From positions 4,092,001 through 4,156,000 of the forward strand of contig NZ_CP014943.1 in the NCBI RefSeq assembly GCF_002077175.1: a stretch of 64,000 nt of DNA, in the 5' to 3' direction. The stretch comes from Colwellia sp. PAMC 21821. Lineage in GTDB: Bacteria > Pseudomonadota > Gammaproteobacteria > Enterobacterales > Alteromonadaceae. Shown here piece after piece: positions 46,181 to 64,000 of the stretch. The notes beneath the pieces were generated by a model. It ran no database searches. It was not told where the DNA came from and was given only the letters and a program-made list of their open reading frames with translations. Numbering within the stretch: position 1 is the stretch's first letter; each line of letters begins with the position of its first letter. Both the position numbers and the translations under genes were made by a program.

Positions 46181-47500
46181 TTAAACGTATCGATTAACAA
46201 TATTTTCAAGTAGCTCTTGACGACCAGATACTTGTTTCGGGCTGAGTTTCTTCTCTAAAACTAGTGCAGATAAGCTGTCTAAGCTATGATCACCAGACAT
46301 GATGCTCTGACCTAAATCACCTTTCCAGCCAGCATAACGCTCATCAACAAACTTAGTTAATGGTGCATCTTCAATTAATTTAGCTGCGTTAAGTAATGCT
46401 TTAGCCATGGTATCCATGCCGCCAATGTGACCAATGAATAAATCATCACGTTCACATGATTGACGACGAAGTTTAGTATCGAAGTTAAAACCGCCAGTAT
46501 CTAAACCGCCCGCTTTTAAGATTTCGTACATAACTAAAGTACATTCAGCAACGTCGTTAGGGAATTGATCTGTGTCCCAACCGTTTTGCATATCACCACG
46601 GTTAGCATCAACACTACCCAAAATACCTTCAGCACAAGCAACAGCAATTTCATGATGGAAGCTATGGCCCGCAAGTGTTGCATGGTTTGCTTCAATGTTT
46701 ACATGAATTTCACCAGCAATACCGTGCTTGTGCAAGAAACCAGCAACAGTTGCGGTATCGTAATCATATTGATGTTTAGTAGGCTCTTGAGGCTTAGGCT
46801 CAATTAATAACTTACCTTTAAAACCAATTTTATGTTTATGTTCAATAACCATTTTAAGGAAACGTGCGTATTGCTCGCCTTCTTGTGCAAGGTTTGTATT
46901 TAATAACGTATCGTAACCTTCACGACCACCCCAAAGTACGTAATTTTCACCACCTAAACGGTGAGTCACATCCATTGCGTGCTTAACTTGAGCAGCAGCA
47001 TAAGCATATAGATCTGGGTTAGGGTTAGTAGAACCACCCGCACAAAAACGGGCATTTGAGAATAAGTTAGCTGTTCCCCATAAAAGCTTAATACCCGTAC
47101 GTTTCATTTCTTTTTCAAAAATAGCCGCAATATGATCTACATTATCGTGGAACTCTTGTAATGAATCGCCTTCAGGCGCGATATCAGCGTCATGAAAACA
47201 AAAGTATGGTGCACCTAGTTTTTCGAAGAATTCAAAAGCAACTTTCGCTTTTTGTTCAGCAAGTTCTAATTGGTTACCTGTAGATTTGATCCAAGGACGA
47301 TCAAACGTACCTTCACCAAAAATATCAAAACCAGTTGAACAAAAGTTGTGCCAGTAACATGCAGCAAAACGAAGGTGTTCTTTCATTGTTTTGCCAAGTA
47401 CTACTTGGTTTTCATCATAGTAACGAAAAGCTAGTGGGTTAGTGCTATTAGCACCTTCAAATTTGATTTTTTTTACGTTATTAAAAAATTGTTCGCTCAT
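46181..47500 (-). CDS. xylA: Xylose isomerase
   Basis: The 439-residue enzyme converts D-xylose to D-xylulose with divalent metals. [10 protein letters not shown] holds the catalytic His103 and Asp104, and [31 protein letters not shown] and [18 protein letters not shown] contain the metal-binding residues. The length fits the longer class II isomerases of Gram-negative bacteria. TAGGAGAAAA directly before the ATG is a strong ribosome binding site. It is the second gene of the operon, 74 bases after xylB. Confidence 0.97.
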
Positions 47501-47573
47501 GGTTTTCTCCTAATTGAATTTTTCTGTGTCAATGTATTCGGTTTATAAAATGGTTTAAAATATTAATGTCAGC

Positions 47574-49031
47574 CTAAAAATGTTCTTTTAAGCTTTGATA
47601 AAGCTTTTGGTATTTACGTTTTTGTGCTTCATAGTAGTCGCTCATTACTGGGTCAGGTTCTATAACATGAACTATATCTCCAGCTAGGCACACTGTGCTT
47701 GCATCTACTTTATTTACGCCAACTTTAGCTAAACGTGCAGCACCATATGCTGGACCTACTTCGCCACCGTTACGGTAGGTTAATGTTTTGTTTAATACGC
47801 TAGCGAGAATTTTTCCCCATAGCTTGCTACGAGATCCGCCACCGATAACTGAAACCGTGTCGATTTGTGTACCTGCTGCTATTAACGCTTCTTGACCATC
47901 ATTAAATGCGTAAGCTATGCCTTCTAAAACTGCACGACCTAATTCAGCAGCACCAGTGCTGTGGTCTAAGCCAAAGAGAACACCTTGTGCATTCGGGTTG
48001 TTGTGAGGAGTACGTTCGCCAGATAAGTAAGGTAAAAAAATGACTGAAGATGGCACTGAAAAATCAAGTTTTTCTACTTTATCTAATAAGCTTTCTTCGT
48101 CTTTACAACCCGTTAACTCTGTTACCCAAGTTAAACAACTGGCTGCACTTAAAATCACTGACATTTGATGCCAAGTATTAGGAATACAATGACAGAAAGT
48201 ATGAACAGCACTGTCTGGATTTGGGTTGTAAGTTTCGTTAGCAACGAAATAAACACCTGATGTACCTAAAGATAAAAAGGCTTCATTCGGGTTAATAACA
48301 CCAATACCTGCTGCACCAGCGGCATTGTCGCCACCACCAGCAATTACTGGTACTTGGTTCATTCCCCATTGATCTGCAATATCTTTATTTAAGTAACCGG
48401 TAATCTCTGTCCCTTCGAATAATATTGGCATTTGTGCAATGGTCAAATCTGTTGCGGTTAGCATTTGCTCAGACCATTGTCTTTTTTCAACATCAAGCCA
48501 TAACGTGCCAGCACTGTCAGACATGTCTGAAGCAAAATCACCGGTCATTAAAAAGCGTAAATAGTCTTTAGGTAATAAAACTTTAGCCACTTTGTTGAAG
48601 TTTTCAGGTTCGTTTTCTTTTAACCAAACCAATTTAGGCGCAGTAAAGCCTGGCATAGCAATGTTGCCAGTAATAGCACGTGTATTAGGTTCACGCGCTT
48701 CAATGGTTTTACATTGTGCTTCGCATCGTCCGTCATTCCATAAAATGGCAGGGCGGATAATGTTGTTGTTATTATCAAGTAAAGTAGCACCGTGCATTTG
48801 TCCAGATAAGCCAACAGAGACAACAGAAGATAATGCTTCACTGTTTTTAGCTTTTAACGTTGCAATTGCGTCGTTAGTTGCTTGCCACCAGTCACTAGGA
48901 TCTTGTTCAGACCACAACGGAGCAGGGCGGCTAACCGTTAACGAAGCTGATGCTTGTTCAATAATTTTATCGTTATCATCAAGTAAAATAACTTTTACAC
49001 CTGAAGTACCTAAATCAATTCCCAAGTACAT
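47574..49031 (-). CDS. xylB: Xylulokinase
   Basis: The 485-residue FGGY-family kinase phosphorylates D-xylulose to xylulose 5-phosphate. MYLGIDLGTSGVKVILLD is the N-terminal phosphate-binding loop, GLSGQMHGATLLD and AILWNDGRCEAQC the sugar region with catalytic Asp, and SVIGGGSRSKLWGKILA the C-terminal ATP-binding motif. It is the first gene of the inward-facing operon; a perfect 14-bp palindrome lies 29 bases upstream, suited to LacI repression. Confidence 0.96.
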   Translation of the reverse strand: MYLGIDLGTSGVKVILLDDNDKIIEQASASLTVSRPAPLWSEQDPSDWWQATNDAIATLKAKNSEALSSVVSVGLSGQMHGATLLDNNNNIIRPAILWNDGRCEAQCKTIEAREPNTRAITGNIAMPGFTAPKLVWLKENEPENFNKVAKVLLPKDYLRFLMTGDFASDMSDSAGTLWLDVEKRQWSEQMLTATDLTIAQMPILFEGTEITGYLNKDIADQWGMNQVPVIAGGGDNAAGAAGIGVINPNEAFLSLGTSGVYFVANETYNPNPDSAVHTFCHCIPNTWHQMSVILSAASCLTWVTELTGCKDEESLLDKVEKLDFSVPSSVIFLPYLSGERTPHNNPNAQGVLFGLDHSTGAAELGRAVLEGIAYAFNDGQEALIAAGTQIDTVSVIGGGSRSKLWGKILASVLNKTLTYRNGGEVGPAYGAARLAKVGVNKVDASTVCLAGDIVHVIEPDPVMSDYYEAQKRKYQKLYQSLKEHF

Positions 49032-49059
49032 AAAAACTCTCTAATGAATTATGTTTATT

Positions 49060-49073
49060 TGTTAGCGCTAACA
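49060..49073. promoter_or_regulatory. LacI-type operator before xylB
   Basis: TGTTAGCGCTAACA is a perfect 14-bp palindrome, 29 bases upstream of the xylB start. It is of LacI-family type, and related forms recur at 49300-49313, 53824-53837 and 37433-37446. The palindrome resembles XylR (LacI) operators of Proteobacteria as I know them. Confidence 0.85.
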
Positions 49074-49299
49074 TTAGCATTGAGAAAATCATTTGGCAAT
49101 GCTTTGTTCTATCATTTATTAGGTTTTTAGAATGCTTGCAATACGTCTTTAATGATTATACTTAGGTTTTCGCATCCTAACTTATTGTTTATTTGACTAT
49201 TTGGTTTTTTATATTTGTTTATATGGGATGGTATTTTTTTTTATTTTTTTGAACATTAAGTCTTATATTATTACTGAATGTTAGTGTATTTGATAATTA

Positions 49300-49313
49300 A
49301 GGTAGCGCTAACA
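49300..49313. promoter_or_regulatory. LacI-type operator before the dehydrogenase remnant
   Basis: AGGTAGCGCTAACA matches the xylB operator at 12 of 14 positions. It lies directly before the broken Gfo/Idh gene on the plus strand, which suggests that gene once belonged to the regulon. Confidence 0.65.
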
Positions 49314-49319
49314 ATTCAA

Positions 49320-49850
49320 TGTTTGTTTGTTGATGCCGGAGAGATAGTTGCCGGATATGCTAGAAACAGAGAAAATGCGCGTGCTTTTGCAAATACATTA
49401 ATAATGCTTCTGAAGGTTATGAGTCGTTGGTTGATGTTCCTAATGTAGACATTGTTTATATTGTTACACCTTATAATTTCCATGTTGATATTGTGCGTGA
49501 TGCTTTCAACCCTGGAATATCGGTATTGTATGAAAAGCCAATTGCCATAAGTAGTAAAGAAAGTAAGTAATTTATTGACTTAGCAAAGCACAAACAGCTT
49601 TTTTAATGGCCGAGATGTGGGCTTACACTTTACCCGACATTATTACAGCAAAACAATTAAAGCAAAACAATGGGTGAAAGAAGGGCGCATAGATAAAGTT
49701 AAGCATATAAAATCTGACATTTTATCCTATGCCTTATCAATTAGAACCTTTGGAATATAGAATTGACTTAGCAAGTGGATATCTATTAGATATGGGTATT
49801 TATCCGCTCGCACTTGCTCATTTTTTTCAAACGATGCGATGTGCAAATTG
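49320..49850 (+). pseudogene. Remnant of a Gfo/Idh/MocA-family dehydrogenase gene
   Basis: Three shifted frames together give recognisable Gfo/Idh/MocA residues: EIVAGYARNRENARAFANT, then NVDIVYIVTPYNFHVDIVRDA and EKPIA, then MAEMWAYTLPDI, AKQWVKEGRIDKVKHI and SGYLLDMGIYPLALA. The N-terminal GxGxxG part and the C-terminal third are missing, and there are at least two frameshifts and an in-frame stop (near 49568). The family includes NAD(P)-dependent sugar dehydrogenases, including some xylose dehydrogenases. It follows a LacI-type operator. Confidence 0.8.
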
Positions 49851-49937
49851 TGTCTGTTTTTCTTTATAATTGATAATTGATAAGCAAATTTATTTTTTGA
49901 ATTTTTCTTCTAAAATTAGGTTTATCTAACGATGTAT

Positions 49938-50105
49938 TTAATATTGCTTAATAAATCTCTTGTAACTCAAGCAAAATAAACTTTCTGGTAATAAATTGAA
50001 ACCAGTGGATTCATGGCGTGCTTTGTATTTTAAGTCATTTAAACTCGCAGCTAGAATATCAGCGTGATCGAACACCAAAGTAGCTAAGTTGTAAACATCA
50101 AACTA
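49938..50105 (-). pseudogene. Fragment of a Nudix-type transcriptional regulator (NrtR/AraR-like)
   Basis: On the minus strand, a frame ending at 49938 reads LATLVFDHADILAASLNDLK, then HESTGFNLLPESL. This LxFDHxxIL and FxLLP pattern is typical of the region joining the Nudix and winged-helix domains of NrtR/AraR-type regulators. It is bounded by stops upstream (near 50106) and lacks both ends, so only about 50 residues remain. Such regulators often control sugar or NAD genes, which suits a former role in this locus. Confidence 0.55.
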
Positions 50106-50257
50106 TTCACACTCAAGTACATTTTTACCACTAATTAAATTAGCTTCTTTATGCTTAACTAAAGAATAAAAAACAATAGTAATAATTCGACTGACTGGAT
50201 ACTTACAGGTTCATTTTTACTTGTGGGTAATAAGTGTGTTAATTATCTAACTAAAAT

Positions 50258-50286
50258 AGAAATGAAAATGAAAATGAAAATGAAAA
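50258..50286. repeat. GAAAAT hexamer tandem repeat
   Basis: The unit GAAAAT is repeated about four times beside the terminator hairpin. It is a simple-sequence run. Confidence 0.6.
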
Positions 50287-50312
50287 GGGAGAGGTTAACC
50301 TCTCCCTTTTTT
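50287..50312. terminator. Terminator of the TonB receptor gene
   Basis: GGGAGAGGTTAACCTCTCCC is a perfect 20-bp palindrome with AAAA on the left and TTTTTT on the right, so it works on either strand. It lies about 35 bases after the receptor stop codon. Confidence 0.85.
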
Positions 50313-50340
50313 CCTTAAATATACTTATTAACAGCTCAAG

Positions 50341-53300
50341 TTAAAAATTATAAGTTAGGCCTACTTGTATACGGCGATCATTCAAGAAGCTTGAACGCTG
50401 ATAGCGTGTACCGGCTTCATCAACCTGCGTTTCTGACTTGTTCTTCGTATCAGTGATGTTGGCAACTAGCAAATTCGCCGTTAAATTGTCACTAAAGTGA
50501 TATCTAACAGATGCATCGAAAAATCCAGTGGCTTTTTGGAAAACTGGGTTACCAGTTACAAAGTCGCGATATGAATTCAGATACTCTGAACGATAGTTAT
50601 AAATTAAACGAACTTCTAAGTCATCATCTTGATAAATACCAATTAGGTTACCTGTGTGCTCTGATTGCCCAAGCAGATTATCTAAACCGAAACGGAAAGT
50701 AGTATCAGCCGAATCAGGTACACCATCGTCATCAGCATCTAAAAACTGTGGCGGTGGTGTTGCTGATGCGTCAACAAAGGTGTAGTTGGCTTGAATACCA
50801 AAATTGGCCCATATGCCCGGTAAACTAGTAAAGAAGTCTTGATAAGCGACTTCAAAACCAGTAACTTCAGCTTCGGCTAAATTAAGTTGACCGTTGAAGT
50901 TAACATTAACTTGTGTGTTGTCTAAGTTAATAGTGCTAACCGGCTTTACGCCATATTGTACGATGTTTTCAATATCTTTATGAAATACACCAAAGGTAAC
51001 AAAGCCTGTTTCGAAGTACCATTCATATGAAATGTCATAGCTATTCGCAGTAGTCGATACAAGATCTGGATTACCACCATTTATGCGGATATTTGATAAA
51101 CTGCCATCTATTAAACCACGAGGTGCAAAATTAGCCGGGTCATTGGGATCATAATCCGGGTCATTGGGATCAATATTAACGAAACGAGATACACTCGTCT
51201 TGGCACTTATTGACTGCGTCGCACTTAGATCTGACATGTTTGGACGAGTAAGACCTTTGCTCGCACCAAAACGGATGAGCATATCATCGTTAAGGTTCAA
51301 TTTAACATTTATTGAAGGTAACCAATGTTCTTCTGATACGTCAACTCTTCGAGAAGAGTCTGCTGCTTGTAGATACGCTTCTGTCTCAGGCAAAAAGTCA
51401 TTTATTTCATCTGTATCTTCAACTGGGTAAGGGAAAGTCTGCTCCACTCCATCTATTTCGACAGTATAGTCACCTTCCTGTTCATCTATGCCGAATTGGT
51501 TATAACTAAGCACCCCATTTGAACCTAATGTGTTTTTAACATAACGTAAACCAACATTACCTGATAAGTACATTCCATTGTCAAAGTCTTGAGCAAAATT
51601 TACCATAGCATATAAATTGATGGTTTCTTCAACAACATCGGCAATACCGCCTGGCTGATAAATTTTAGTATAGTTACCATCTCTTGAGCGACGCAGTAAG
51701 TCCGAACTAGCTGGATTTTCAGGGTTAAGATTAGTATCAGCCGCGAATGGCGAATATTGTGAATGTGCGAAATCAGGCTCAGCCTGTAAGTAATCGTAGA
51801 ATAAATGTGGGTTACGTAATAGGTCAGCATTAGCATAAAGTAGTGAGGTATTTGCACCACCTACCACACCACCACGAAAGAAATCACTGAAATCTACTTC
51901 TTCGTAAATATTTTTCTCTAACGAGTTTAAAGGAGCTACGCCACCGCCCCATAACGGAGTGACGCCTTTCCAGTTGCCATCTGCTTCTTTGTTGATTTGT
52001 TCACGTTCAGAGTAGCGTGCGCCCATTTTAACAGACTGAAACCAACCGTCTGAGTCGTCAAGTGCATATTCAACGTCAAGCTTAGCCGCTTGTAAATCGC
52101 CTTTGCCTTCTTTGAATGAGTCGTTTGCAAAACCAACATAAGAACCGCCAGGGTCTGCCGGACTAGTAGGCGCTAAGTTTGAACCTTGAACTGTGCCAAG
52201 GTCTTCGATGCGGTTAGTGATGTTATTACGCGGATCAACAGAAAATTCTAAATATGGGTTATCTAAACTAGGACGAGAAAACACGTTTAAGAAAGTATTT
52301 ACACCAATCCATTGTTCTTCGAAAGATGCTTCGGCCGTTGTTCTATGGGCATCAAATTCTACAGTCAATTGGTCAGTAGCACGCCATTTAACGTTAATGC
52401 TAACATCATCAGTTTCTGAATATTCTTGCTTACCTATGCCTAGGTTAGACACTCGCAATCCGTAAGCGCCAGCCCAGCTTCTAAAATCATCTGTAATCAG
52501 GCCCTCTTCAAATATACCACCAGTAACGGGGATTAACTCGTCACATTCACCAGCAGGACTTTCGTTGCTCCCATTACATAAAGGGATACCGCCTGACTCA
52601 AATGGTGACACCACTAATTCACTAACCTCTACCCCTCCTGATCTCACCGTCTCAGCGTCAGCATACCACTCAGAGGTGCGTTCAAGACCATTCACCCGAT
52701 TTTCTACGGTTACGTATTTAACCAATACTTCAACATTGTCGTCAGCACTACGCCATTGACCCGCAAGGTAGATACTTTCTCTATCGCGATCAACTTCGTT
52801 TGTACGTAAATTGAAACCAGGTGCTAAAGCAACAGTCCCTAAAGGCCCTTGACCATCAGCATAACTAGAGGCCGGAATATTATCACGAGGAACAAGCGTC
52901 CCTGCTTGGTAACCATTAATGTTTGACTGTAATTCAGATGAAGAATATGAGCCTACAAATCCAAATTTGCCGTTATCGGTATCAAAGTTTTTACCAAATA
53001 TACCACTAAATGTCGGGCTAAATTCTTCGCGTATATCAGTATAAACAGTATCAACAGAAATTTGCGCTATGCCGTCTTCATTATCGAATGGTGCAAGTGT
53101 TTGTAGATTAATTGTTCCGCCAATACCACCTTCAATAAGGTCAGCTTGTTGGTTTTTAAAAACGTCTACGCGCCCGACAAGTTGTGTAGGTACAGCAGAC
53201 CAATCTAGTGCTCTGCCGCCGTTTGCTGAAAAGGCATCGCGTCCGTTAAATTCTGAACGAATAAAACCAAGACCCCGAATTAAGTTACCTGAACCTTCTG

Positions 53301-53634
53301 GAGAAGGAAAATCGCCAGCAGTTCCACCAGCGGTAAAACGAGAAACAGTAAGACCTGGTATACGCGAAAGAGCCTCAGCAACTGACAAGTCAGGAATGGC
53401 AGATGCGTCAGATGCGGTAATTGAGTCGACAAATGTTGATGATTCACGTTTGATTTCAGCTGCGTTGGCTAGCGCACCACGAATACCAGTAACGCTAATA
53501 ACTTCTATTTGCTTCGCTTCGCTTTTAACCTCTATTTCCTTCGCTTCGCTTTCTTCAGCATAGCCTATAGTTGATAGGGTCATTGATCCTATCGCAGCTA
53601 AGATGGAGGTAGCTAATATCTTTTTATTAAACAT
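50341..53634 (-). CDS. TonB-dependent receptor (large, Caulobacter/Xanthomonas-type)
   Basis: The 1097-residue outer-membrane protein has a signal peptide (residues 1-26), an acidic 9-residue imperfect duplication (SEAKEIEVK/SEAKQIEVI) before the plug, and a plug domain beginning ISVTGIRGALANAAEIKRESSTFVDSITASDASAIPDLSVAEALSRIPGL. A long beta-barrel ends with VGLTYNF, whose terminal Phe is typical. The plug pattern is that of the TonB-Xanth-Caul group used for oligosaccharides. It faces the halogenase-like genes across an intergenic region with a LacI-type operator. GGGGAAA precedes the ATG. A xylan- or plant-glycan substrate is inferred. Confidence 0.92.
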   Translation of the reverse strand: MFNKKILATSILAAIGSMTLSTIGYAEESEAKEIEVKSEAKQIEVISVTGIRGALANAAEIKRESSTFVDSITASDASAIPDLSVAEALSRIPGLTVSRFTAGGTAGDFPSPEGSGNLIRGLGFIRSEFNGRDAFSANGGRALDWSAVPTQLVGRVDVFKNQQADLIEGGIGGTINLQTLAPFDNEDGIAQISVDTVYTDIREEFSPTFSGIFGKNFDTDNGKFGFVGSYSSSELQSNINGYQAGTLVPRDNIPASSYADGQGPLGTVALAPGFNLRTNEVDRDRESIYLAGQWRSADDNVEVLVKYVTVENRVNGLERTSEWYADAETVRSGGVEVSELVVSPFESGGIPLCNGSNESPAGECDELIPVTGGIFEEGLITDDFRSWAGAYGLRVSNLGIGKQEYSETDDVSINVKWRATDQLTVEFDAHRTTAEASFEEQWIGVNTFLNVFSRPSLDNPYLEFSVDPRNNITNRIEDLGTVQGSNLAPTSPADPGGSYVGFANDSFKEGKGDLQAAKLDVEYALDDSDGWFQSVKMGARYSEREQINKEADGNWKGVTPLWGGGVAPLNSLEKNIYEEVDFSDFFRGGVVGGANTSLLYANADLLRNPHLFYDYLQAEPDFAHSQYSPFAADTNLNPENPASSDLLRRSRDGNYTKIYQPGGIADVVEETINLYAMVNFAQDFDNGMYLSGNVGLRYVKNTLGSNGVLSYNQFGIDEQEGDYTVEIDGVEQTFPYPVEDTDEINDFLPETEAYLQAADSSRRVDVSEEHWLPSINVKLNLNDDMLIRFGASKGLTRPNMSDLSATQSISAKTSVSRFVNIDPNDPDYDPNDPANFAPRGLIDGSLSNIRINGGNPDLVSTTANSYDISYEWYFETGFVTFGVFHKDIENIVQYGVKPVSTINLDNTQVNVNFNGQLNLAEAEVTGFEVAYQDFFTSLPGIWANFGIQANYTFVDASATPPPQFLDADDDGVPDSADTTFRFGLDNLLGQSEHTGNLIGIYQDDDLEVRLIYNYRSEYLNSYRDFVTGNPVFQKATGFFDASVRYHFSDNLTANLLVANITDTKNKSETQVDEAGTRYQRSSFLNDRRIQVGLTYNF

Positions 53635-53938
53635 ATATTTCCCCGATTGTTTTATATTTATTCTATTATTGTCTATATGACAATTACACTTTTAACATAA
53701 TATATTCATAATGACAATAAGTCACTTTGGTATATTCGATATAAAAATAAAGTGCTTTAACAAAAATTATTTTATAATTCTCGATTTTAATTACATTATG
53801 CTATATGTTTAATAATAATAAAATGTTAGCGCGAACATTTTGTAAATGACATTATTTAACCTTTATTAACAATGTTTTTTTGTTTGCGGTATTTATAAGA
53901 ACTAAAGCGAAATTTAGTAATAAAAAACAGGTCGAATT
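53635..53938. promoter_or_regulatory. Divergent promoter region of the TonB receptor and halogenase operons
   Basis: This 304-base AT-rich stretch holds both promoters. The clear element is the LacI-type palindrome at 53824-53837. No gene is seen. Confidence 0.65.
53824..53837. promoter_or_regulatory. LacI-type operator between TonB receptor and halogenase genes
   Basis: TGTTAGCGCGAACA differs from the xylB operator at one of 14 positions. It lies about 100 bases before the first halogenase gene and 190 before the receptor gene. Confidence 0.75.
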
Positions 53939-55450
53939 ATGCACTTATGTATAGTGGGAGGAGGCTCTGCTGGATGGATGACAGCGGCAGCACTTGCAAA
54001 GAAATTTTCAAGACTAAAACTTCAAATTACCCTTGTCGAATCCCAAGAGATTGGCACGGTTGGGGTTGGTGAAGCCACTTTGCCACATATAAGATTCTTC
54101 AATCAGACTTTAGGCATAGACGAGCGCGATTTTATGCGTAAAACCAAAGCAACATTTAAATTAGGCATCGAGTTTGTTGACTGGGGAAGCAAGGGAGATA
54201 GTTATATTCATCCTTTTGGTGACTTTGGCGAAAAAATAAATTCAGTCGACTTTTATCAGTATTGGTTGTTAGCTCAAAAAAATAATGACATGGGTAAATT
54301 AGAAGACTATGCATTTGGTATTGCCGCTGCAAAATCTAACAAATTCACTATACCTGAGTTGGGAGCACCAGATTTAAAAAACTCTTTTGGTTATGCCTAT
54401 CAATTTGATTCAAGCTTGTATGCTAAATACTTACGCGAATTTTCATGCAAACTCGGGGTTAATACAATAGAAGGTAAAGTCGTTAACACCTCATTAAATG
54501 AGACAAATGGAAATATTTCAGCATTAACACTGGAGAATGGCCAACGTATTAGCGCCGACTTATTTGTTGATTGTTCAGGTTTTCGTGGTTTACTGATTGA
54601 GCAAAGTCTACAATCTGGCTATCAAGATTGGTCTAACTGGTTACCCTGTGACCGAGCTATTGCTGTGCCTTGTGAACGTACGCAGCAGCTTACTCCTTAT
54701 ACGCGCTCAACCGCTAAAGAAGCTGGTTGGATATGGCGAATTCCGTTACAGCATCGCACAGGGAATGGTCATGTTTATTGCAGTCAGTTTATTAGTGACG
54801 ACGCAGCTCAACATTCACTATTAGAGCAATTAGACGGAAAAGTTTTGGCTGAGCCTCGTAAACTTAGATTTAAAACAGGCCGTAGAAATCACTTTTGGAA
54901 AAACAATGTTATTGCTATCGGATTGTCGGCAGGCTTTTTAGAGCCACTCGAATCAACATCCATTCACTTAATTCAAGAAGGCATTACTAAGTTAATCGAG
55001 CTATTTCCCGCGTTTGATGATCAACAAACCACCTCAAATACACTAACAATAGATGAACTAGATATTACAGAATACAATGCCCAGATGAGCTTAGAATATG
55101 AGCGCATTCGAGATTTTCTATTATTACACTATGTTGCAAATGACCGAAGTGATAGCCCTCTGTGGGCATATTTTAAAAATATGACACTCCCAGATAGCCT
55201 GCAAGAGAAACTAGATTTGTGGATGCATCGAGCCTACATTCAACGCTATGAAATAGGCGCATTTTTACCACCAAGTTGGGTTGCAGTTCTGCTTGGACAA
55301 AACTTGATACCGCATAATGTCGATCCTAGGGTGCAAGCGTTTGGTACTAGTGATATACGTTCTAAAGCAAATGCGATGCGCGAAGATATCAAGCTAGGTT
55401 TACATCAGGCTGAAGGTCATCAGGCTTTTTTGAACCGCTATATATCATGA
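53939..55450 (+). CDS. Flavin-dependent tryptophan-halogenase-like protein 1
   Basis: The 503-residue protein belongs to the FAD-dependent tryptophan halogenase family, which uses reduced flavin, O2 and halide to chlorinate or brominate aromatic compounds. Gly7, Gly9 and Gly12 form the FAD motif; Lys74 (TFKLGIEFVDW) fits the catalytic lysine; WIWRIP (264-269) is the family signature; and Glu338-Ser339 in LEPLESTS fit the catalytic glutamate and chloride-site serine. All key residues are intact. No flavin reductase or biosynthetic gene is adjacent, and TonB-linked members have unknown natural substrates. First of four such genes in a row. Confidence 0.9.
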   Translation: MHLCIVGGGSAGWMTAAALAKKFSRLKLQITLVESQEIGTVGVGEATLPHIRFFNQTLGIDERDFMRKTKATFKLGIEFVDWGSKGDSYIHPFGDFGEKINSVDFYQYWLLAQKNNDMGKLEDYAFGIAAAKSNKFTIPELGAPDLKNSFGYAYQFDSSLYAKYLREFSCKLGVNTIEGKVVNTSLNETNGNISALTLENGQRISADLFVDCSGFRGLLIEQSLQSGYQDWSNWLPCDRAIAVPCERTQQLTPYTRSTAKEAGWIWRIPLQHRTGNGHVYCSQFISDDAAQHSLLEQLDGKVLAEPRKLRFKTGRRNHFWKNNVIAIGLSAGFLEPLESTSIHLIQEGITKLIELFPAFDDQQTTSNTLTIDELDITEYNAQMSLEYERIRDFLLLHYVANDRSDSPLWAYFKNMTLPDSLQEKLDLWMHRAYIQRYEIGAFLPPSWVAVLLGQNLIPHNVDPRVQAFGTSDIRSKANAMREDIKLGLHQAEGHQAFLNRYIS

Positions 55451-55492
55451 CTTTGCGATGTATCGTAAGGAATGTCGTAAGGAATATTGTAA

Positions 55493-57042
55493 ATGAATGA
55501 AAATGATGTGCACGAGGCCAACTACGTTAATAGTGCGAATCCGAAAAAGCTAGATATTGTGATATATGGCCACAGCATTGCTGCTTTTATATCCGCTTTG
55601 ACAATCCATAATGCACTTTCAGATCACGTTACGCTTTCCCTGATATTACCTGCTGATCAGGCGCATAGCGATATACTGTATGGTGGTACGACTGCGCCTG
55701 ATGCTTATAATCTTCATTTGGCAATGGATATTTCTGAGCCGGAGTTATTTCAAGAAACTAACTCAAGTTTTTCGTTTGGAACGCATTATCAAAATTGGAA
55801 CGGGGGGGATTAGACTGGGTGCAAGCGTTTAGTTTACCGTTTACTTTACAGTACGGTATGGGCTTCCACCAGGTCCTGTTAAAGCACAAGCAAAACTTAC
55901 AAGCTTACTTAGTGGGCGCCCAATCTGTGTTACATGATAAGTTTGCTCATCCACCGCAAAATCAACCTGCATCGCCATTGTCTAGGGCTGAATATGGCTA
56001 TAATTTTGATTATCAAAACTACGCACGGTTTTTACTAAAAAAGATTAAGCAGAGAAAAATAAGACTGATTCAATCAGATTTTTTAGAAGCCAAAGTTGCG
56101 GATGAGCATATTACTAGCTTACGACTAAATGACGGCTCGTGCATTGAGTCCGATTTATTCATAGACTGTTCGGGTACTGACGCTAGGTTAATGAGCACTT
56201 TGGGCGTAAAAAAGCGAGTACATTCTAAAATAAACCTTTCGTTATTAACTAACGAAAATGACACCCAAATGAAACCATGTAACATAGTGTCTGGGCATGG
56301 GAATGCTTGGCAGTCGAGGCTTTACTTACAAAGTTCTAGCCAGATATTACAAGCGGCTAGTGCTGTAAATAGCGCTGATAACAGTACTGAGAATAGCGCT
56401 AAAGATACCTCTGCAGAAAATAGAAGTTCTGCCAACACAATCACATCAATTAGCGCTGACATTGGTGAACAAGAGCAAGCTTGGGTAGGTAATTGTGTTG
56501 CAATCAGCCTGAGTGCAGCTGTTCTTGAACCATTTTCAAATGCACCTTTTAGATTGCTTAAGCTTGATGTAGACCGCCTCCTAGCGCTAATTCCTATCTC
56601 GAATAATATGCGCATGGAACAAAAAGAGTACAATCGGCGCTTTAGTTTGGACGTTCAACACGCCAGACTATTTAACTTGGCATTGACCGATACAAGGCAT
56701 TTTTTGCAACATGAGCATTCCACGAAAAATCAGCTTCTTGCTACTGATGTTGATAGTGATACACAAGCATTACTTGATAGAAAATTAGCACAATATTTGC
56801 ACCGTGGATTAATGGTTGCCTACGATTATGAGCCTTTCAATACCGAAGATTGGATAATACTTCACTTTGGTATGAGGCGATTTCCAAGACGCCTCGATAG
56901 TCTATGCGACAACATCGACAATTCAAATGTTAAACAGCATTTATTGCATACAAAAAATGCAATAGCAGCCGTTGTGCCCAAAATGCCACCATGTTCACTA
57001 TATACACAAAAGTTTTTGAATTATTTAAAGAGGCAACCATGA
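55493..57042 (+). pseudogene. Halogenase-like gene 2: frameshifted and lacking active-site motifs
   Basis: Two reading frames (55493-55813 and 55795-57042) together give one protein of about 515 residues, the family length. They break at a run of seven Gs (55802-55808); adding one G restores the frame through NWNGGGLDWVQAF. The gene has an AGGAA ribosome binding site and its stop overlaps the next start (ATGA), so it belongs to the operon. The FAD glycine motif is lost (YGHSIAAF), the WxWxIP segment reads SRLYLQSS, and the Glu-Ser pair is replaced in LEPFSNAP. A pseudoenzyme is likely even if the frame is intact in the living strain. The shift may be a sequencing error, mutation or slippage. 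Confidence 0.8.
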
Positions 57043-58556
57043 ATCAGTCATCTACCAATCGTATCCGCAAAATTGTTATAGCTGGCGGAGGAACTGCAGG
57101 TTGGATGTCTGCGGCGGCGCTTTCAAGCATGCTAAGGCCTGATGACGTACAAATTGTACTAGTAGAATCTGAAGAAATAGGCACGGTTGGTGTAGGTGAA
57201 GCGACCATTCCCGATATTATAAGTTTCAATCGCATGTTGGGCATTGATGAAGCTGAATTTTTAAAGGCGACAAACGCTACTTTTAAGCTGGGCATAGAGT
57301 TTAGTGATTGGGGTAAACTTGGAGATAAATACTTTCATCCATTTGGTAACCACGGCGCAGACATGAACGGTATTGATTTTCATCAATATTGGCTGCATAC
57401 CAGGCAAGCGGGAAACACCAATAGTTTGGAAGAATATAGCATGTGTGCGGTAGCGGCTAAAAGTATGAAGTTTGCGCTACCTAACGATAATCCACGGTCA
57501 CTTTTATCGCAAATTGGTTATGCCTACCATTTTGATGCCACTGCATACGCTTTGTTTCTAAGAAACTACGCCCAAAAGCGCGGCGTAATACGAATCGAAG
57601 GGCGTATCGATCTAGTTTTGCTTAATGAGCAAACTGAAAATATTTCTGCACTTGTCATGCAAAACAATGAGCGTGTTGAGGGTGATTTCTTTTTTGATTG
57701 CACGGGTTTTAAGTCTAAGCTGTTAGGTGAAACACTGGGCGTACCATTTCACGATTGGTCAAAGTGGCTGCCATGCAACAGTGCTCAAGCAGTGCCAAGC
57801 GAACGCCGTGGTGAATTACTACCTTACACTAAGTCGATGGCCAAAACCGCTGGTTGGCAATGGCGTATTCCGACTCAGCATAGAACTGGAAATGGTCATA
57901 TTTATAGCACTGATTTTATGAATGATCAGCAAGCTACAGATATACTTATGCAGGGACTTGATGCTCCAGCACTTTCTGATCCACGTACCCTAAGATTTAC
58001 CACGGGGTGCCGCGATAAATTCTGGCATAAAAACTGTTTGGCAATTGGTCTTGCGAGCGGTTTTCTAGAACCTTTAGAATCGACTTCTATTTTCTTAATA
58101 CAACAAGGGATCAGCCGCTTTATTTCGTTATATCCGTCTTTAACGCCGGCTCCTAAAGTAGTAGAAGAATACAATCGTTTAATGACTCGTGAATTTCATC
58201 AAGTTAGAGATTTTATTATATTGCATTACAAAGCTACACAACGCACAGACAGTGAGTTTTGGCGCTATTGTAAAAACATGTCGATACCTGACTCTTTGCA
58301 ACACAAAATGGAGTTATTTCAGTGCGCTGGACGAGTATTTAGAGATGATCATGAGTTATTCTCAACTTCTAGCTGGGTAGCTGTGATGTTGGGTCAAAAC
58401 ATTTATCCTGAAACAGCTGACCCAATGTTGCTTGGAGTGCCTATTCAAAACATTGAACAGAGCTTACAAAGTATGCAACGTGCAATGCAACAAACAAGCT
58501 TGCAAATGCCAACCCATGCCGAGTTTATAAAAAACTATGCTGGCTCTTCGGTTTAA
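57039..58556 (+). CDS. Flavin-dependent tryptophan-halogenase-like protein 3
   Basis: The 505-residue protein has the intact FAD motif Gly16, Gly18, Gly21, a fitting catalytic Lys83 (TFKLGIEFSDW), WQWRIP (273-278) and Glu347-Ser348 in LEPLESTS. ATG at 57039 overlaps the previous stop codon as ATGA and has AAAGAGG upstream, so translation is coupled; a start 48 bases upstream lies inside the previous gene. The enzyme should be active as a flavin halogenase if reduced flavin is supplied from elsewhere. Substrate unknown. Confidence 0.9.
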   Translation: MNQSSTNRIRKIVIAGGGTAGWMSAAALSSMLRPDDVQIVLVESEEIGTVGVGEATIPDIISFNRMLGIDEAEFLKATNATFKLGIEFSDWGKLGDKYFHPFGNHGADMNGIDFHQYWLHTRQAGNTNSLEEYSMCAVAAKSMKFALPNDNPRSLLSQIGYAYHFDATAYALFLRNYAQKRGVIRIEGRIDLVLLNEQTENISALVMQNNERVEGDFFFDCTGFKSKLLGETLGVPFHDWSKWLPCNSAQAVPSERRGELLPYTKSMAKTAGWQWRIPTQHRTGNGHIYSTDFMNDQQATDILMQGLDAPALSDPRTLRFTTGCRDKFWHKNCLAIGLASGFLEPLESTSIFLIQQGISRFISLYPSLTPAPKVVEEYNRLMTREFHQVRDFIILHYKATQRTDSEFWRYCKNMSIPDSLQHKMELFQCAGRVFRDDHELFSTSSWVAVMLGQNIYPETADPMLLGVPIQNIEQSLQSMQRAMQQTSLQMPTHAEFIKNYAGSSV

Positions 58557-58617
58557 ATTCTAAGGTTAAGCAGGTAATTAAGCAGGTCGTTTAGACGTTA
58601 ATTAAATAGGTAATTTT

Positions 58618-60117
58618 ATGCAAAGTATGGACGTTAAAAATGTCGTCATTGTCGGTGGTGGAACTGCAGGGTGGATGTCAGCAGCAGCGATGTCGAAACT
58701 ACTCGGTAGCAAAAAAATTAATATACGCGTAATCGAATCTGAATCGATAGGCACAGTAGGCGTTGGGGAAGCCACCGTCCCGCATATTCAGTATTTTAAT
58801 CGACTATTAGGCATAGATGAAAATAGTTTTATTAAAAAAACAAATGCGACCTTTAAATACGGGATCGAGTTTGTTGACTGGCATAAACGTGGTGAGTCTT
58901 ATTTTCATTCATTTGGCCCTTATGGAATGGATATGGAAGGTATTCATTTTCATCATATGTGGTTACGCCAACAGCAAGCAGGTACTGCCAAGCCAATCGA
59001 CGAATTTAACCTACAGATTCAAGCAGCCAAGGCGGGAAAATACATGCCTGCACGTCCTGAGTTGCAGGGTAGTCCATTAAGCGCGCTTTCGTATGCATTT
59101 CAATTTGACGCGGCATTATATGCTGCCTTTTTACGAGATTATTCCGAAAAGAACGGGGTGACTAGAATCGAGGGAAAAATTGTTAACGTTACTCAAGCTG
59201 CAAATACTGGTCATATTGAATCGGTTACATTGGAAGATGGCGAATGTATTAAGGGTGACTTGTTTATTGATTGTTCTGGCTTTAAGGGCTTATTGATCGA
59301 AGAAACGTTAAAAACTGGATATGATGACTGGTCACTTTACTTGCCTTGTGACAGTGCTGTTACACGCCTTAGCGAGCGTATGGCCGAGCTTCCTCCATAT
59401 ACTCGAGCGACGGCTAAAGCGGCAGGTTGGCAGTGGCGGATTCCTCTACAGTCGAGAACGGGTAATGGCTATGTTTACTCAAGCCAATTTTTAAGTGATG
59501 AGGATGCAATCGAAAGCTTAAACAAAGACCTTGATACCGCCCCAATATCAGATCCTCGTCAGTTGAAGTTTAAAACAGGTATTAGAAAGCAGACGTGGAA
59601 CAAAAATGTGGTTTCGATAGGTCTTTCTTCTGGTTTTTTAGAGCCGCTTGAATCGACATCGATCCACTTAATACAAACCGCTATTGCAAGATTAATGACT
59701 AACTTCCCAGATATGTCATTTAATCAACCGGATATTGATTACTATAATGAGCGAACCAAGGCTGAGTATATGCAAATTAGAGATTTCTTAATTCTGCATT
59801 ATAAAGCAACTACACGGGACGATAGCCCTTTTTGGGACTACGTACGCGAAATGGATATTCCAGTGTCGTTAGAGAAGCGCATAGCTATTTACAAGGAAAA
59901 CGCGCGTTTATATAGCGAAGACAAAGTGTTATTTAATCACAGCAGTTGGTTTGCAGTATTTAATGGTCAAGGTATTCACCCGCAACGTTATCATCCTATC
60001 GCCAATTTTTTAGAAGAAAAAGAGATGGAAAGGCGTATGGCTGAAATTCACACCGTGACACAAAAATGCTTAAGCATTATGCCATCACATGATGAGTTTT
60101 TATCGAAGATGATTTAG
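58618..60117 (+). CDS. Flavin-dependent tryptophan-halogenase-like protein 4
   Basis: The 499-residue protein keeps all halogenase hallmarks: Gly13, Gly15, Gly18, Lys80 (TFKYGIEFVDW), WQWRIP (271-276) and Glu345-Ser346 in LEPLESTS. AGGTAA lies before the ATG. It begins 61 bases after the previous gene and is the last of the run. Sequence differences along the length suggest old duplications rather than a recent one. Natural substrate is not readable. Confidence 0.9.
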   Translation: MQSMDVKNVVIVGGGTAGWMSAAAMSKLLGSKKINIRVIESESIGTVGVGEATVPHIQYFNRLLGIDENSFIKKTNATFKYGIEFVDWHKRGESYFHSFGPYGMDMEGIHFHHMWLRQQQAGTAKPIDEFNLQIQAAKAGKYMPARPELQGSPLSALSYAFQFDAALYAAFLRDYSEKNGVTRIEGKIVNVTQAANTGHIESVTLEDGECIKGDLFIDCSGFKGLLIEETLKTGYDDWSLYLPCDSAVTRLSERMAELPPYTRATAKAAGWQWRIPLQSRTGNGYVYSSQFLSDEDAIESLNKDLDTAPISDPRQLKFKTGIRKQTWNKNVVSIGLSSGFLEPLESTSIHLIQTAIARLMTNFPDMSFNQPDIDYYNERTKAEYMQIRDFLILHYKATTRDDSPFWDYVREMDIPVSLEKRIAIYKENARLYSEDKVLFNHSSWFAVFNGQGIHPQRYHPIANFLEEKEMERRMAEIHTVTQKCLSIMPSHDEFLSKMI

Positions 60118-60515
60118 CTTCGCTAACCAACAATACAGAAAAGGTTTTATGTATTAAAGACGCTTATTTTACTAGCTAAGTTAATTCTTTGTTGTGGTAT
60201 TACTTTATTTAAATGCAAAAAGTTGAACGTTCAAACTTTATGGTAATCGCGTATTTAGTCGTTTTAATTCAATACTATTGGTAAGTTATCATTATATTCA
60301 TAATAACAATGGTGTGATTTTTATCATGACAAAAAAACGATTAATATCTGTTTATATTCTTACCTCTGCGATGATGGTAAGTACAATATAGCGGGTTGTA
60401 ATATAAGTAGTGTTACAAAAATACTTTATAAATATGTGCATAAAAAGCAGCATTTAAACTCGGCTATTTATTTTCATATTATAAGAGTTATACGATTTAC
60501 AAAGGAAACTAGATA
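60118..60515. promoter_or_regulatory. Upstream region of the GH3 gene
   Basis: About 400 AT-rich bases hold a perfect 12-bp palindrome TTGAACGTTCAA (60223-60234) and a weak CRP-like half TGTGA-N6-TCATG (60313-60328). Neither LacI-type box nor gene is seen. AAAGGAAACTAG before the ATG is the ribosome binding site. Confidence 0.45.
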
Positions 60516-63089
60516 ATGAAAAAAAACACTTGCCTGACCCGAAATCCAATTTCATATTACGGCGCAGCTCTATTCATCGTTGTTTTATCTGGTTGTTCGA
60601 ACAAAGACGTTGACCTAAGACCGAAAGACTCTACCCACGCTGCCCATGATATCACCCTATGGCCAACCTTAACTCAACCCGCTACCAAAAACTTAGAAGT
60701 AGATCAGCGTGTTAAAGATCTGCTTGCACAAATGACATTAGCCCAAAAAGTGGGGCAAATGACCCAAGCTGAAATTACCTGGGTGACCCCTGAAGAAGTT
60801 AAAAAATACCATCTTGGTTCAGTTTTAAACGGTGGCGGAACTTTTTTACATGGTAAGCGTCATGCGACTGTTCAAGAATGGGTAAATTATATGGATGTTC
60901 TTTATGACGCCTCTATGGATACTTCTGACGGCGGTTTAGAAATTCCTATGACTTATGGCATCGATGCCGTTCATGGTAATAATAAGTTCGGAAGCGCCAC
61001 AATATTTCCACACAACATTGGTCTTGGTGCTGCGAACAATCCTGCGTTGCTCAATAAAATAGGTAAGGTTACCGCTTTAGAAGTATTGGTCACCGGTATT
61101 GATTGGACATTTGCTCCTACACTAGCCGTTGTTCGTGACGACCGCTGGGGCAGAGCCTATGAAGGTTATTCAGAAGATCCAAGCATTGTTGCAAAGTATG
61201 CAAAAGCAATGACCGAAGGCGTTCAAGGTATACCGGGTGAAGACTCTTTTCTAGATGAGCACCATGTATATGCTACGGCTAAACACTGGGTTGGAGATGG
61301 CGGCACCAACAATGGCATCGATCAAGGCGACAATATACTAAGCGAAAAAGATCTCATCCGATTACAAGCGGCAGCTTACTTTCCATCGTTAGAAGCTGGT
61401 ATTCAGTCCATTATGGTCAGTCACAATGGCTGGCACGGTGAAAAACTACACGGTCACAAATATCTTATCACTGAGGTACTAAAAGGAAAACTAGGGTTTG
61501 ATGGTTTTGTCGTTGGCGACTGGAATGCTCATGCCAACGTAAAAGGTTGTACTGCTGACAGTTGTGCGCAAGCGGTTAATGCCGGTATTGATCTATTTAT
61601 GGTAGTAGAAGACTATAAAGCCTTTATTGATAATACTATTGCTGACGTAAACTCTGGCGCTATTCCACTGTCTCGCATCGATGATGCCGTTAGCCGAATT
61701 TTACGTGTGAAAATTCGCTCAGGTTTATTTGAAAAAGGACGTCCTAGTTCACGTACATATGCAGGACAAAGTGAACTGATGGGGGCTGAATCTCATCGAG
61801 AAATTGCTCGTCAAGCGGTAAGAGAATCTCTGGTGTTACTTAAAAACAATAAGAGCACACTACCATTAAATCCGAACCAACATATTTTAGTTACTGGAGA
61901 CGGTGCCGACAATATGGCTAAACAAGCGGGAGGCTGGACAATAAGCTGGCAAGGTACTGAAGTTATTAAAGACGATTTTGTTGGCGCATCAACGATTTTA
62001 GATGGCATAAGAACTACCGTAGAAGCAGCAGATGGTAGTCTAGAATATTCTGTTAATGGTGAATACAAGTCGAAGCCCGACGCAGCAATTGTTGTCTTTG
62101 GTGAAAAACCTTACGCAGAATGGTTTGGTGATGTGAAAACGCTAGCCTATTCTCCGTATTCTGACAAAGACGCCAAATTATTAGAAAAACTAAAAGCCGA
62201 TGGTATTCCTGTTGTCGCCGTATTTTTAAGCGGACGACCTCTTTGGGTAAATCGCGAGATAAACGCCGCTGATGCTTTTGTGGCTGCGTGGCTTCCTGGT
62301 TCTGAAGGCAAGGCAGTTGCTGATGTATTATTTAGTGATAAAGCTGGTGTTATTCAACATGATTTTACAGGAACACTTAGCTTTAGTTGGCCTAAAAAGG
62401 CGTCACAAAATATTTTAAATGTCGGAGATCAAGATTATGACCCATTGTTTGCCTACGGTTATGGTTTACGCTATATCGACACCGTTGAATTAGCTGTACT
62501 CGATACAGTAAATGACAACATTATTAAACTCGACTTAGAAGCGCCATATGACGTACTGGCAGGGAAAATAACAGAGCCATGGCAGTTAATGATGGACGAT
62601 AAAAATTCGATTCAATACCTAAATTCATCTCGTACAGAAACCGATGTTGCATCAATAATGGAAGCTGATAAGACTGTTCAAGGTAACTCTCAAGAGTTTC
62701 ATTGGTCAGGCACTGCAAAAGCCACCTTGGGTATTAGCTCAAAAACATACGACCACGACTTGATGAGATACCTTGGTCAAGACGGTTTCCTGCAGTTTGA
62801 CGTACGCACAATAGCCTCGCCTTTAGGTGATGTAAATATAGCACTTAGCTGTAACGCAACTGGAGGTTACTGCGGAGATATACCATTGACCTCCTATTTA
62901 CCAACGGTTGAGAGTAAAGAATGGGCGACAATATCCATTGATTTGTTATGTTTTGCTAAAAAAGGTGTCGATTTTGAACGCGTGGCAGTACCATTTTCAT
63001 TAACATCCGATGCAGAAGCTACGCTACGTATAGCTAATATTAGATACATTACTGAAAAGCCTGAATCTATAACTGTCAGCTGCACATAG
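60516..63089 (+). CDS. Glycoside hydrolase family 3 exo-beta-glucanase/glucosidase, lipoprotein
   Basis: The 857-residue enzyme has a lipoprotein signal (LSGC, Cys27). The GH3 N-terminal barrel contains RWGRAYEGYSEDP, KHWVGDGGTNNGIDQGD and the catalytic nucleophile Asp335 in FVVGDWNAH. A second GH3 domain (residues about 430-640) is followed by a C-terminal beta-sandwich like that of marine ExoP-type exo-1,3/1,4-beta-glucanases. It probably releases glucose from beta-glucans at the cell surface or periplasm; a xylosidase role is not supported by motif. It stands at the end of the halogenase run but has its own promoter region. Confidence 0.88.
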   Translation: MKKNTCLTRNPISYYGAALFIVVLSGCSNKDVDLRPKDSTHAAHDITLWPTLTQPATKNLEVDQRVKDLLAQMTLAQKVGQMTQAEITWVTPEEVKKYHLGSVLNGGGTFLHGKRHATVQEWVNYMDVLYDASMDTSDGGLEIPMTYGIDAVHGNNKFGSATIFPHNIGLGAANNPALLNKIGKVTALEVLVTGIDWTFAPTLAVVRDDRWGRAYEGYSEDPSIVAKYAKAMTEGVQGIPGEDSFLDEHHVYATAKHWVGDGGTNNGIDQGDNILSEKDLIRLQAAAYFPSLEAGIQSIMVSHNGWHGEKLHGHKYLITEVLKGKLGFDGFVVGDWNAHANVKGCTADSCAQAVNAGIDLFMVVEDYKAFIDNTIADVNSGAIPLSRIDDAVSRILRVKIRSGLFEKGRPSSRTYAGQSELMGAESHREIARQAVRESLVLLKNNKSTLPLNPNQHILVTGDGADNMAKQAGGWTISWQGTEVIKDDFVGASTILDGIRTTVEAADGSLEYSVNGEYKSKPDAAIVVFGEKPYAEWFGDVKTLAYSPYSDKDAKLLEKLKADGIPVVAVFLSGRPLWVNREINAADAFVAAWLPGSEGKAVADVLFSDKAGVIQHDFTGTLSFSWPKKASQNILNVGDQDYDPLFAYGYGLRYIDTVELAVLDTVNDNIIKLDLEAPYDVLAGKITEPWQLMMDDKNSIQYLNSSRTETDVASIMEADKTVQGNSQEFHWSGTAKATLGISSKTYDHDLMRYLGQDGFLQFDVRTIASPLGDVNIALSCNATGGYCGDIPLTSYLPTVESKEWATISIDLLCFAKKGVDFERVAVPFSLTSDAEATLRIANIRYITEKPESITVSCT

Positions 63090-63095
63090 CTCATA

Positions 63096-63127
63096 GTTCA
63101 AAGGCCACATCATTGTGGCCTTTGAAC
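63096..63127. terminator. Hairpin after the GH3 gene
   Basis: Perfect 14-base arms GTTCAAAGGCCACA and complement with a four-base loop lie seven bases after the stop codon. A T-run is missing, so termination strength is uncertain. Confidence 0.65.
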
Positions 63128-63409
63128 GTATTATCCTGAATGGTGAGTAGTGTAAAATAAACTAAAAACCTGTTCTATACGACAGGTCAGCTTTTCTTGA
63201 GTTTTAGTTTTACAATCTGGCTTTTGGTTTAGGTAGTTATTGGATGAAATGACAACTCAGATTATTCGAAGTATGAAATATGGAACTTCGAGTCCAACAA
63301 ACCCAATAATTCTCATCCTAGTAGCAAGAGTGTATGAACAGTGGGAATAAATGAATATCAATTTCACGTTAAGCTCCCCAGCAGTCGGTGTTAGCACGCC
63401 ATGTGTTTT
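63128..63409. other. Intergenic region between convergent hydrolase genes
   Basis: About 280 bases separate the GH3 gene hairpin and the end of the glycoside hydrolase gene on the other strand. I see no gene or strong repeat. Confidence 0.4.
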
Positions 63410-64000
63410 TTATTTTTTAGGCGTAAACCTTATCAAATCATAAGTACCTTTCGTATGATGAATATATTGTTTTTCAGCCATTTTCTCTAACCAACGTTCC
63501 TTTAACTCAGGGTTCGTTTCTATACGAGAATCGCCCCAGCCATCCCACATAGGTTGAGCATCCCAATCAGTATTTATATAAGATACCGCTTTAATAACAT
63601 CACTATTAGCTTCTATATGATCGAATAATATTTGGAACCAATCAGACCAAATTAAACTATTTTTGGTTTTATTTAACCAAAATCCACGAGGGGTTGTTTC
63701 AGCGATAAAAATAGGTTTGTTTTTTTTACGCGCCAATTCCAGTGATACTTGAGGTGCAATGCTATTTGCCCAATATGAATAACCAATCCAATCTACATAT
63801 TCATCACCAGGCCAATATTCTAACCACTTATTCATCTTGAGATATGGACTAGAACTAGCAAATACGGTTGCAAAATTATTAAGTTTTTTTTCATTCAAAG
63901 CATCTACAATTCGACGCCAAGCTAGTTTGAAATTTGGCGCGTCGTAGTCATTCCACGCTCCATCAAACTCGTAACCAATTCTAATAAAAAAGGGTACATC
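63410..64000 (-). CDS. Glycoside hydrolase, C-terminal part (cut by window edge; GH26-like)
   Basis: The frame is open to the last base, so the N-terminal part lies outside. About 197 residues remain. RIGYEFDGAWNDYDAPNFK near the edge has the acid/base Glu pattern of GH26 and related clan-A enzymes, WPGDEYVDWIGYSYW follows, and KPIFIAETTPRGF contains the likely nucleophile Glu. Beta-mannanase and beta-1,3-xylanase activities occur in GH26, but the family assignment rests on short motifs. It ends 320 bases from the convergent GH3 gene, extending the glycan-use locus. Confidence 0.65.
   Translation of the reverse strand, partial: DVPFFIRIGYEFDGAWNDYDAPNFKLAWRRIVDALNEKKLNNFATVFASSSPYLKMNKWLEYWPGDEYVDWIGYSYWANSIAPQVSLELARKKNKPIFIAETTPRGFWLNKTKNSLIWSDWFQILFDHIEANSDVIKAVSYINTDWDAQPMWDGWGDSRIETNPELKERWLEKMAEKQYIHHTKGTYDLIRFTPKK

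Follow-up and report, generated by a model that had tools for sequence, protein, structure and literature searches.

A TonB receptor–halogenase unit with a conserved, apparently non-catalytic paralogue beside xylose genes in Colwellia sp. PAMC 21821

What four halogenase-like genes in a row might do beside a TonB receptor gene and sugar genes is the question raised by a 64,000-nucleotide stretch of the Colwellia sp. PAMC 21821 genome (the window; positions 4092001–4156000 of 4.88 Mb; genome G000). By profile search, four PF04820 (Trp_halogenase) genes were found in tandem at 53939–60117 on the + strand, divergent from a gene for a TonB-dependent receptor (TBDR) (Table 1). This agreed with an earlier sequence-only reading, which had described three intact genes and one degenerate copy next to a TonB receptor and sugar genes. 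The explanation put forward here, which we hold tentatively and regard as just short of an even prospect, is that the locus encodes a receptor and halogenases under xylose/xylan control, one paralogue serving as a non-catalytic partner, and that the enzymes modify an aromatic compound.

Table 1. Features of the receptor–halogenase locus and its surroundings (window positions)
Feature	Position	Strand	Evidence
TBDR, TIGR01782 (Xanth-Caul) kind	50341–53634	-	Plug, barrel and TIGR01782 matches
Copy 1, probable flavin-dependent halogenase, all catalytic motifs	53939–55450	+	PF04820 607 bits; motifs
Copy 2 (psi), conserved, apparently non-catalytic halogenase paralogue	55493–57042	+	Two open reading frames (ORFs), PF04820 30 + 138 bits
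Copy 3, probable flavin-dependent halogenase, all catalytic motifs	57039–58556	+	PF04820 598 bits; motifs
Copy 4, probable flavin-dependent halogenase, all catalytic motifs	58618–60117	+	PF04820 631 bits; motifs
GH3 glycoside hydrolase, associated, outside minimal unit	60516–63089	+	Glyco_hydro_3, 3_C and Exop_C domains
xylA + xylB (xylose isomerase, xylulokinase), associated	46181–49031	-	TIGR02630 and TIGR01312, each above cut-off
LacI-family regulator, candidate operator reader	37495–38535	+	LacI and Peripla_BP_3 domains
Palindrome AATGTTAGCGCGAACATT in the receptor/copy 1 gap, putative LacI-type operator	53822–53839	.	
Second palindrome copy, 27 bases upstream of xylB	49058–49075	.	2 mismatches

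The receptor–halogenase unit and its relatives

It was found that copies 1, 3 and 4 carry all the family hallmarks (GxGxxG, the catalytic Lys, WxWxIP and Glu-Ser), as the sequence-only reading had reported for three copies, with PF04820 scores of 598–631 bits against a cut-off of 21. Judged by these motifs, the three copies look catalytically able. The solved structures closest to copy 4 were those of the Pseudoalteromonas sp. L11 tryptophan halogenase (PDB 9luq, named by its PDB title; 513 bits), BrvH of Brevundimonas sp. BAL3 (PDB 6frl; 476 bits), which has the same Lys and WxWxIP, and Xcc4156 (PDB 6y1w; 455 bits). The free-tryptophan halogenases PrnA, RebH, Thal and PyrH, of the same fold and family, scored lower (about 260–306 bits). 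The available part of the BrvH paper reports that the enzyme brominates indole and that replacing the catalytic Lys abolishes activity (PMC5945002). Because the motifs are kept and BrvH provides a precedent, copies 1, 3 and 4 were read as probable halogenases, and the earlier suggestion that halogenation had been lost altogether is not favoured for these copies, which keep Lys, Glu and WxWxIP. No signal peptide was visible by eye on the halogenases.

The unit was compared in other genomes and fetched loci (labels beginning with G and L, respectively). A sister species, Colwellia sp. C1TZA3 (G008), has the same four genes and the receptor. Between G000 and G008, dN/dS ratios (Nei–Gojobori, own script) were 0.074 for copy 1, 0.041 for copy 3, 0.068 for copy 4 and 0.083 for the receptor. 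Each gene of the arrangement, a receptor divergent from 1-psi-3-4, has its counterpart in the same order in a Henriciella metagenome-assembled genome (L199, an 8.6 kb contig), which by its name belongs to the Alphaproteobacteria, another class than that of the window; no other gene lies between the receptor and the four halogenases on that contig. Window copies 1, 2, 3 and 4 were 58, 36, 59 and 61% identical to Henriciella genes 1–4, each being most like the gene of equal position (copy 2 compared by its second piece). The receptors were 46% identical over 709 residues, that of Henriciella being cut by the contig end. A receptor with 1-psi-3 was found in G202, also outside the window's class. 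By these sequence comparisons, the receptor and four-halogenase unit is old and conserved.

The link to receptors was examined in the whole genome, which has 11 halogenase genes at seven places (islands). All seven adjoin one of the 44 plug-domain matches, against 0.6–0.7 expected, and none of 100000 random placements reached seven receptor-linked islands. The seven receptors are all among the genome's 12 TIGR01782 receptors above cut-off, and the remaining 32 plug genes have no halogenase neighbour (Fisher p = 2e-5). A wider set of 76 islands was made from the loci of full-length halogenase matches in this genome and relatives, with 19 weak partial matches excluded; it includes many orthologues of one genus, and its members are not independent. 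A receptor lay within 700 bp in 65 of the 76 and within 5 kb in 69. Of the other seven islands, two (L101 and L138) are close to a contig end and one (L041) holds a truncated gene; in L050, L115, L143 and L145 the profile found no receptor in the stretch fetched. The TonB receptor link is general for these halogenases. Comparison of homologue neighbourhoods, as the sequence-only reading had proposed, gave this pattern and not a consistent aromatic biosynthetic cluster.

SapC, Cupin_8 or DUF6445, the only accompanying families sought, occurred in 35 of the 76 islands, and none of them in the window island. In L014:7289–12964 (G000:C1:4190289–4195964) and similar islands, two halogenases stand together with SapC (PF07277), a Cupin_8 protein related to FIH, DUF6445 and a receptor. 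The predicted model of SapC was confident (pLDDT 94.6); it had no like solved structure (best E 0.007, TM 0.12) and no sequence match to one. A second halogenase type (L014:7289–8887, L018:9721–11247 and others), occurring mostly in SapC-type islands, mostly shows GWxWDI(G/S/A) and EPLEA replacing WxWxIP and EPLES. At L045:16196–17038, a 2OG-Fe(II) oxygenase gene adjoins a receptor/psi triplet.

Conservation of the non-catalytic copy

The reading frame of copy 2 is broken at a seven-G run (55802–55808), which is the sole G/C run of at least 7 in the 64 kb. None of GxGxxG, Lys, WxWxIP and Glu-Ser is intact in this copy, and Ser replaces both the catalytic Lys and Glu in copy 2 and its G008 orthologue. 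In G008 the orthologue is open (512 aa), and the 415-aa piece of the window copy is 92% identical to it. The dN/dS value between the two was 0.168 over the 405 codons past the break and 0.204 over the 100 codons before it. Copy 2 is under purifying selection, weaker than that on its neighbours but clear; the relaxed selection expected of a decaying pseudogene was not seen (dN/dS 0.17–0.20).

With the G008 protein as query, 395 homologues were obtained at E ≤ 1e-10 among 7998 candidates, and columns were counted in the best 120 of these, which include the query and the piece from the window. At the catalytic Lys position there was no Lys (91 Ser, 21 Thr, 7 others and 1 gap), and at the catalytic Glu position no Glu (86 Thr and 34 Ser). 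GxGxxG was undetected in 101 of the 120, some of which are partial sequences. In 75 columns conservation was 93% or higher; live enzymes share some of these columns and not others. FAHPP at 151–155, for example, was present in 120/120. The family profile matched both pieces of the window copy (30 and 138 bits), and the G008 protein was predicted to keep the halogenase fold (pLDDT 87.5, from a 37-row alignment including live copies). The nearest solved structures were BrvH, 9luq and Xcc4156, with BrvH as the best match (TM 0.82–0.87). Because of the purifying selection, the orthology across classes and the psi-specific conservation, copy 2 is assigned, on sequence grounds, to a conserved halogenase subfamily without catalytic residues and not to mere decay, of which the degenerate copy had earlier been taken as a sign.

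A census counted 179 halogenase ORFs, each 360 aa or longer, in the window, L013–L018, L040–L059, L093–L166, L199, L210 and L211; it left out L197, L198, L212 and L213, and broken psi copies would escape it. Lys, Glu and WxW were kept in 158/179. Glu was absent from 21/179, from 19 genomes, and 18 of these 21 also lacked Lys; the Glu-less copies in L048, L050 and L094 still have the catalytic Lys. As the census loci were partly picked by a psi profile, this share is not a prevalence. All 21 Glu-less copies adjoin a live copy: 18 lie between two, and three (L050, L101 and L102) end a pair; in L095, one live neighbour is a fragment at a contig end. The psi copies of three-gene units were more divergent than those of four-gene units. 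In a tree of live and psi copies, the psi copies fell on one side of a branch with a support of only 82, and the end branches were very long.

The conserved place beside live copies, the kept fold and the lost chemistry suggest that copy 2 most likely works as a non-catalytic partner of a neighbouring copy. The ORF of copy 3 spans 56991–58556, and its most likely start is at 57039, where the ATG overlaps the copy 2 stop (57039–57042). Comparable short overlaps were found at the psi junctions of several relatives.

The shared palindrome and the xylose/xylan genes

A search pattern was drawn from the palindrome between the receptor and copy 1, whose own match is therefore by construction. Besides its source, the pattern matched the site upstream of xylB and one at G000:C1:4156547, where a GH10 gene, itself followed by a GH43 gene, lies ∼0.46 kb downstream. 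The window contains two matches, one of them the source, against 0.12 expected. Of the genome's four sites at ≤2 mismatches, three lie within 16 kb at receptor/copy 1, xylB and GH10; at ≤3 mismatches there were 19 sites, against 4 for a reversed control pattern. G008, G085 (Pseudocolwellia sp. AS88, L198) and, at 3 mismatches, L199 also carry the palindrome in the receptor/copy 1 gap; in G008 it stands upstream of xylB as well (L040:11185). The occurrence of one palindrome before the unit, xylB and a GH10 xylanase gene, with the pattern itself taken from one of these sites, is what a regulon would show. Because of this sharing, beyond mere proximity, the array was assigned to the xylose/xylan locus. 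This placement was the part of the earlier interpretation that found support; decay of copy 2 did not, and loss of halogenation is not favoured for copies 1, 3 and 4. The receptor–halogenase unit looks xylose-regulated, with the palindrome as its putative operator. For the LacI-family protein, no NCBIfam equivalog was found above cut-off. The palindrome is presumably similar to the xylose operator of Caulobacter.

The xylB, xylA, tal and tkt genes lie on the receptor side of the array, and xylose genes are near the unit in both the window and G008. Eleven loci with three-gene units or psi pairs were scanned for the palindrome: it was found with 3 mismatches in L048, in weaker form in L102 and L106, and in none of the other 8. 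The L048 site (L048:14877–14894) lies just upstream of the receptor of the three-gene psi unit, and that locus also has a LacI-family gene. Of 11 loci with three-gene or pair units whose neighbours were scanned, four (L052, L102, L103 and L104) carry GH43, GH115 or GH10; others carry GH5, GH9, GH1, GH97 or a xylose-isomerase-like protein, and in L047 and L098 the scan found no sugar-related glycosidase. The xylan link is firm for the window locus and its close relatives, and uncertain elsewhere.

Several observations were made around the unit. A perfect 18-base palindrome, GGAGAGGTTAACCTCTCC, at window 50288–50305 just downstream of the receptor gene, is perhaps the receptor terminator. A MobA/VirD2-type relaxase gene at 31890–34160 is a possible trace of a mobile element. 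An Rfam search of 44000–64000 gave nothing at gathering score. A precursor peptide within the unit was considered and rejected, as only ORFs of 15–37 aa lie around the gaps 53635–53938 and 60118–60515.

Possible function and target of the halogenases

From these observations we infer the following course of events. In the presence of xylan sugars, the shared palindrome would be released by a LacI-type repressor, allowing joint expression of the divergent receptor gene, the 1-psi-3-4 operon, the xylose genes and the GH10 xylanase gene. Copies 1, 3 and 4 would act as cytoplasmic flavin-dependent halogenases, forming hypohalous acid from O2, a halide (probably bromide, by analogy with BrvH) and reduced flavin supplied by a reductase encoded elsewhere. 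As the sequence-only reading had noted, no flavin reductase is present in the unit; the genome's three PF01613 genes all lie outside the window. The catalytic lysine would then relay the hypohalous acid to an electron-rich aromatic ring. Copy 2, having kept the fold and lost the chemistry, may be translated in step with copy 3 and serve its neighbour as a scaffold, substrate holder or regulator. The target would be an aromatic compound entering the cell with xylan breakdown products, which is the weakest step of the proposal. A plant aromatic released from xylan, as the sequence-only reading suggested, is conceivable as such a target. Regulation by xylan favours a target arriving with xylan, and the general receptor link favours one tied to the receptor. 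A further proposal, conceivable but on balance somewhat doubtful, is that psi is an obligate dead subunit of a hetero-oligomeric halogenase, which would serve TonB-receptor polysaccharide uptake and whose target would be the receptor polypeptide itself or else an aromatic cargo.

Several results weigh against the xylan-linked explanation. Copy 2 is broken in the window strain, which implies either that the unit works without it or that the assembly errs. In a second halogenase island (L014 near 3897, G000:C1 about 4186897), the receptor gene is also frameshifted relative to G008; the assembly may thus hold indel errors, and the error option stays. A search at ≤4 mismatches did not find the palindrome in three sister units (L095, L097 and L210), and the neighbours scanned in L093, L097 and L210, where some ORFs are perhaps spurious, included no recognisable carbohydrate gene. 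In the genome's other halogenase islands, no xylan gene was present among the few neighbours scanned. Since the palindrome and sugar genes were not found in some sister units, the xylan link may hold for some units only. Nor is any substrate or product known for the window halogenases, BrvH or the Xanthomonas enzymes.

Another halogenase gene lies upstream of that of BrvH, and the available part of its paper mentions no receptor, regulon or non-catalytic partner and doubts indole as the native substrate (PMC5945002). Xcc4156 and the other two Xanthomonas campestris halogenases act on indole derivatives and not on free tryptophan; as far as that source was available, the native substrates of BrvH and the three Xanthomonas enzymes are stated to be unknown, and the words "TonB" and "operon" have 0 occurrences in its main text (PMC7336383). 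Halogenase transcripts were assigned to Colwellia and phages in the accessible portion of another report, which offers two hypotheses (PMC11337851). A literature search, with most full texts outside its reach, turned up no paper on the Pseudoalteromonas sp. L11 enzyme, no account of a connection between these halogenases and TonB receptors of carbohydrate loci, and no description of a non-catalytic halogenase paralogue.

Among other explanations, a polypeptide target is unlikely, though the likeliest of them. The simplest such target would be the receptor or another envelope protein, with a Trp or other aromatic residue modified before export, and the receptor link would then reflect an enzyme together with its substrate. 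The Henriciella unit, in which receptor and halogenases stand alone, is consistent with this, as is the Cupin_8 protein of the sister islands, which is related to FIH and JMJD5; these two are protein hydroxylases. MibH, a lanthipeptide tryptophan halogenase by its PDB title (5uao), belongs to the same family and gives a precedent for a polypeptide target, but it is distant from copy 4 (182 bits) and belongs to a lanthipeptide pathway. In an alignment of five receptors from four-gene units, eight Trp positions do not vary; however, this invariance is confounded by kinship. Between the window and Henriciella receptors, 8/10 Trp were conserved, which exceeds the mean of 324 control pairs, themselves not independent, by 1.7 sd. 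A conserved target Trp was sought in the halogenase-linked receptors of the genome and rejected, as no Trp column was common to 6/7 of them and their Trp content was not raised. With no signal peptide seen, the enzymes would also have to act before export. It is still less probable that the proteins do not halogenate in vivo and are flavin monooxygenases or oxygen-consuming flavoproteins for another oxidation. Weak matches to the monooxygenase QhpG, far below cut-off, would suit this; the retention of Lys, Glu and WxW in 158 of the 179 ORFs of the census speaks against it.

Two explanations appear very improbable. One is plain tandem duplication under decay, with copy 2 a pseudogene and the other copies redundant. 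The frameshift, the missing motifs and a dN/dS above the neighbours' would suit it; it is largely refuted by the selection, gene-by-gene orthology and psi-specific conservation described above, and the other 20 psi copies in the fetched loci are open, in a count that took only ORFs of at least 360 aa. The other is a natural-product biosynthetic cluster whose remaining genes lie elsewhere, given that many known halogenases of the PF04820 family serve such clusters. The closeness of receptors and the presence of SapC, Cupin_8 or DUF6445 in the island set argue against it. As the sequence-only reading had stated, no peptide synthetase or other biosynthetic partner was found among the window proteins scanned (31890–63898); at 1–44000 there was no synthetase-sized ORF, the longest being 756 aa. 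None was found among the scanned neighbours of other loci either, one neighbour list covering 25 of 72 families. In a genomic survey, as far as the source was available, 20/103 halogenases were inside biosynthetic clusters and 83/103 outside (PMC8269204).

If psi is indeed a dead subunit, halogenation would be tied to carbohydrate feeding and not to natural-product synthesis. For the BrvH/Xcc4156 group, structures have been solved, and the natural role is not known in the literature as far as it was available. The unit, with its putative xylose operator and dead paralogue, offers a defined locus and condition for seeking the substrate of this group, some of whose halogenases may need testing together with a partner.

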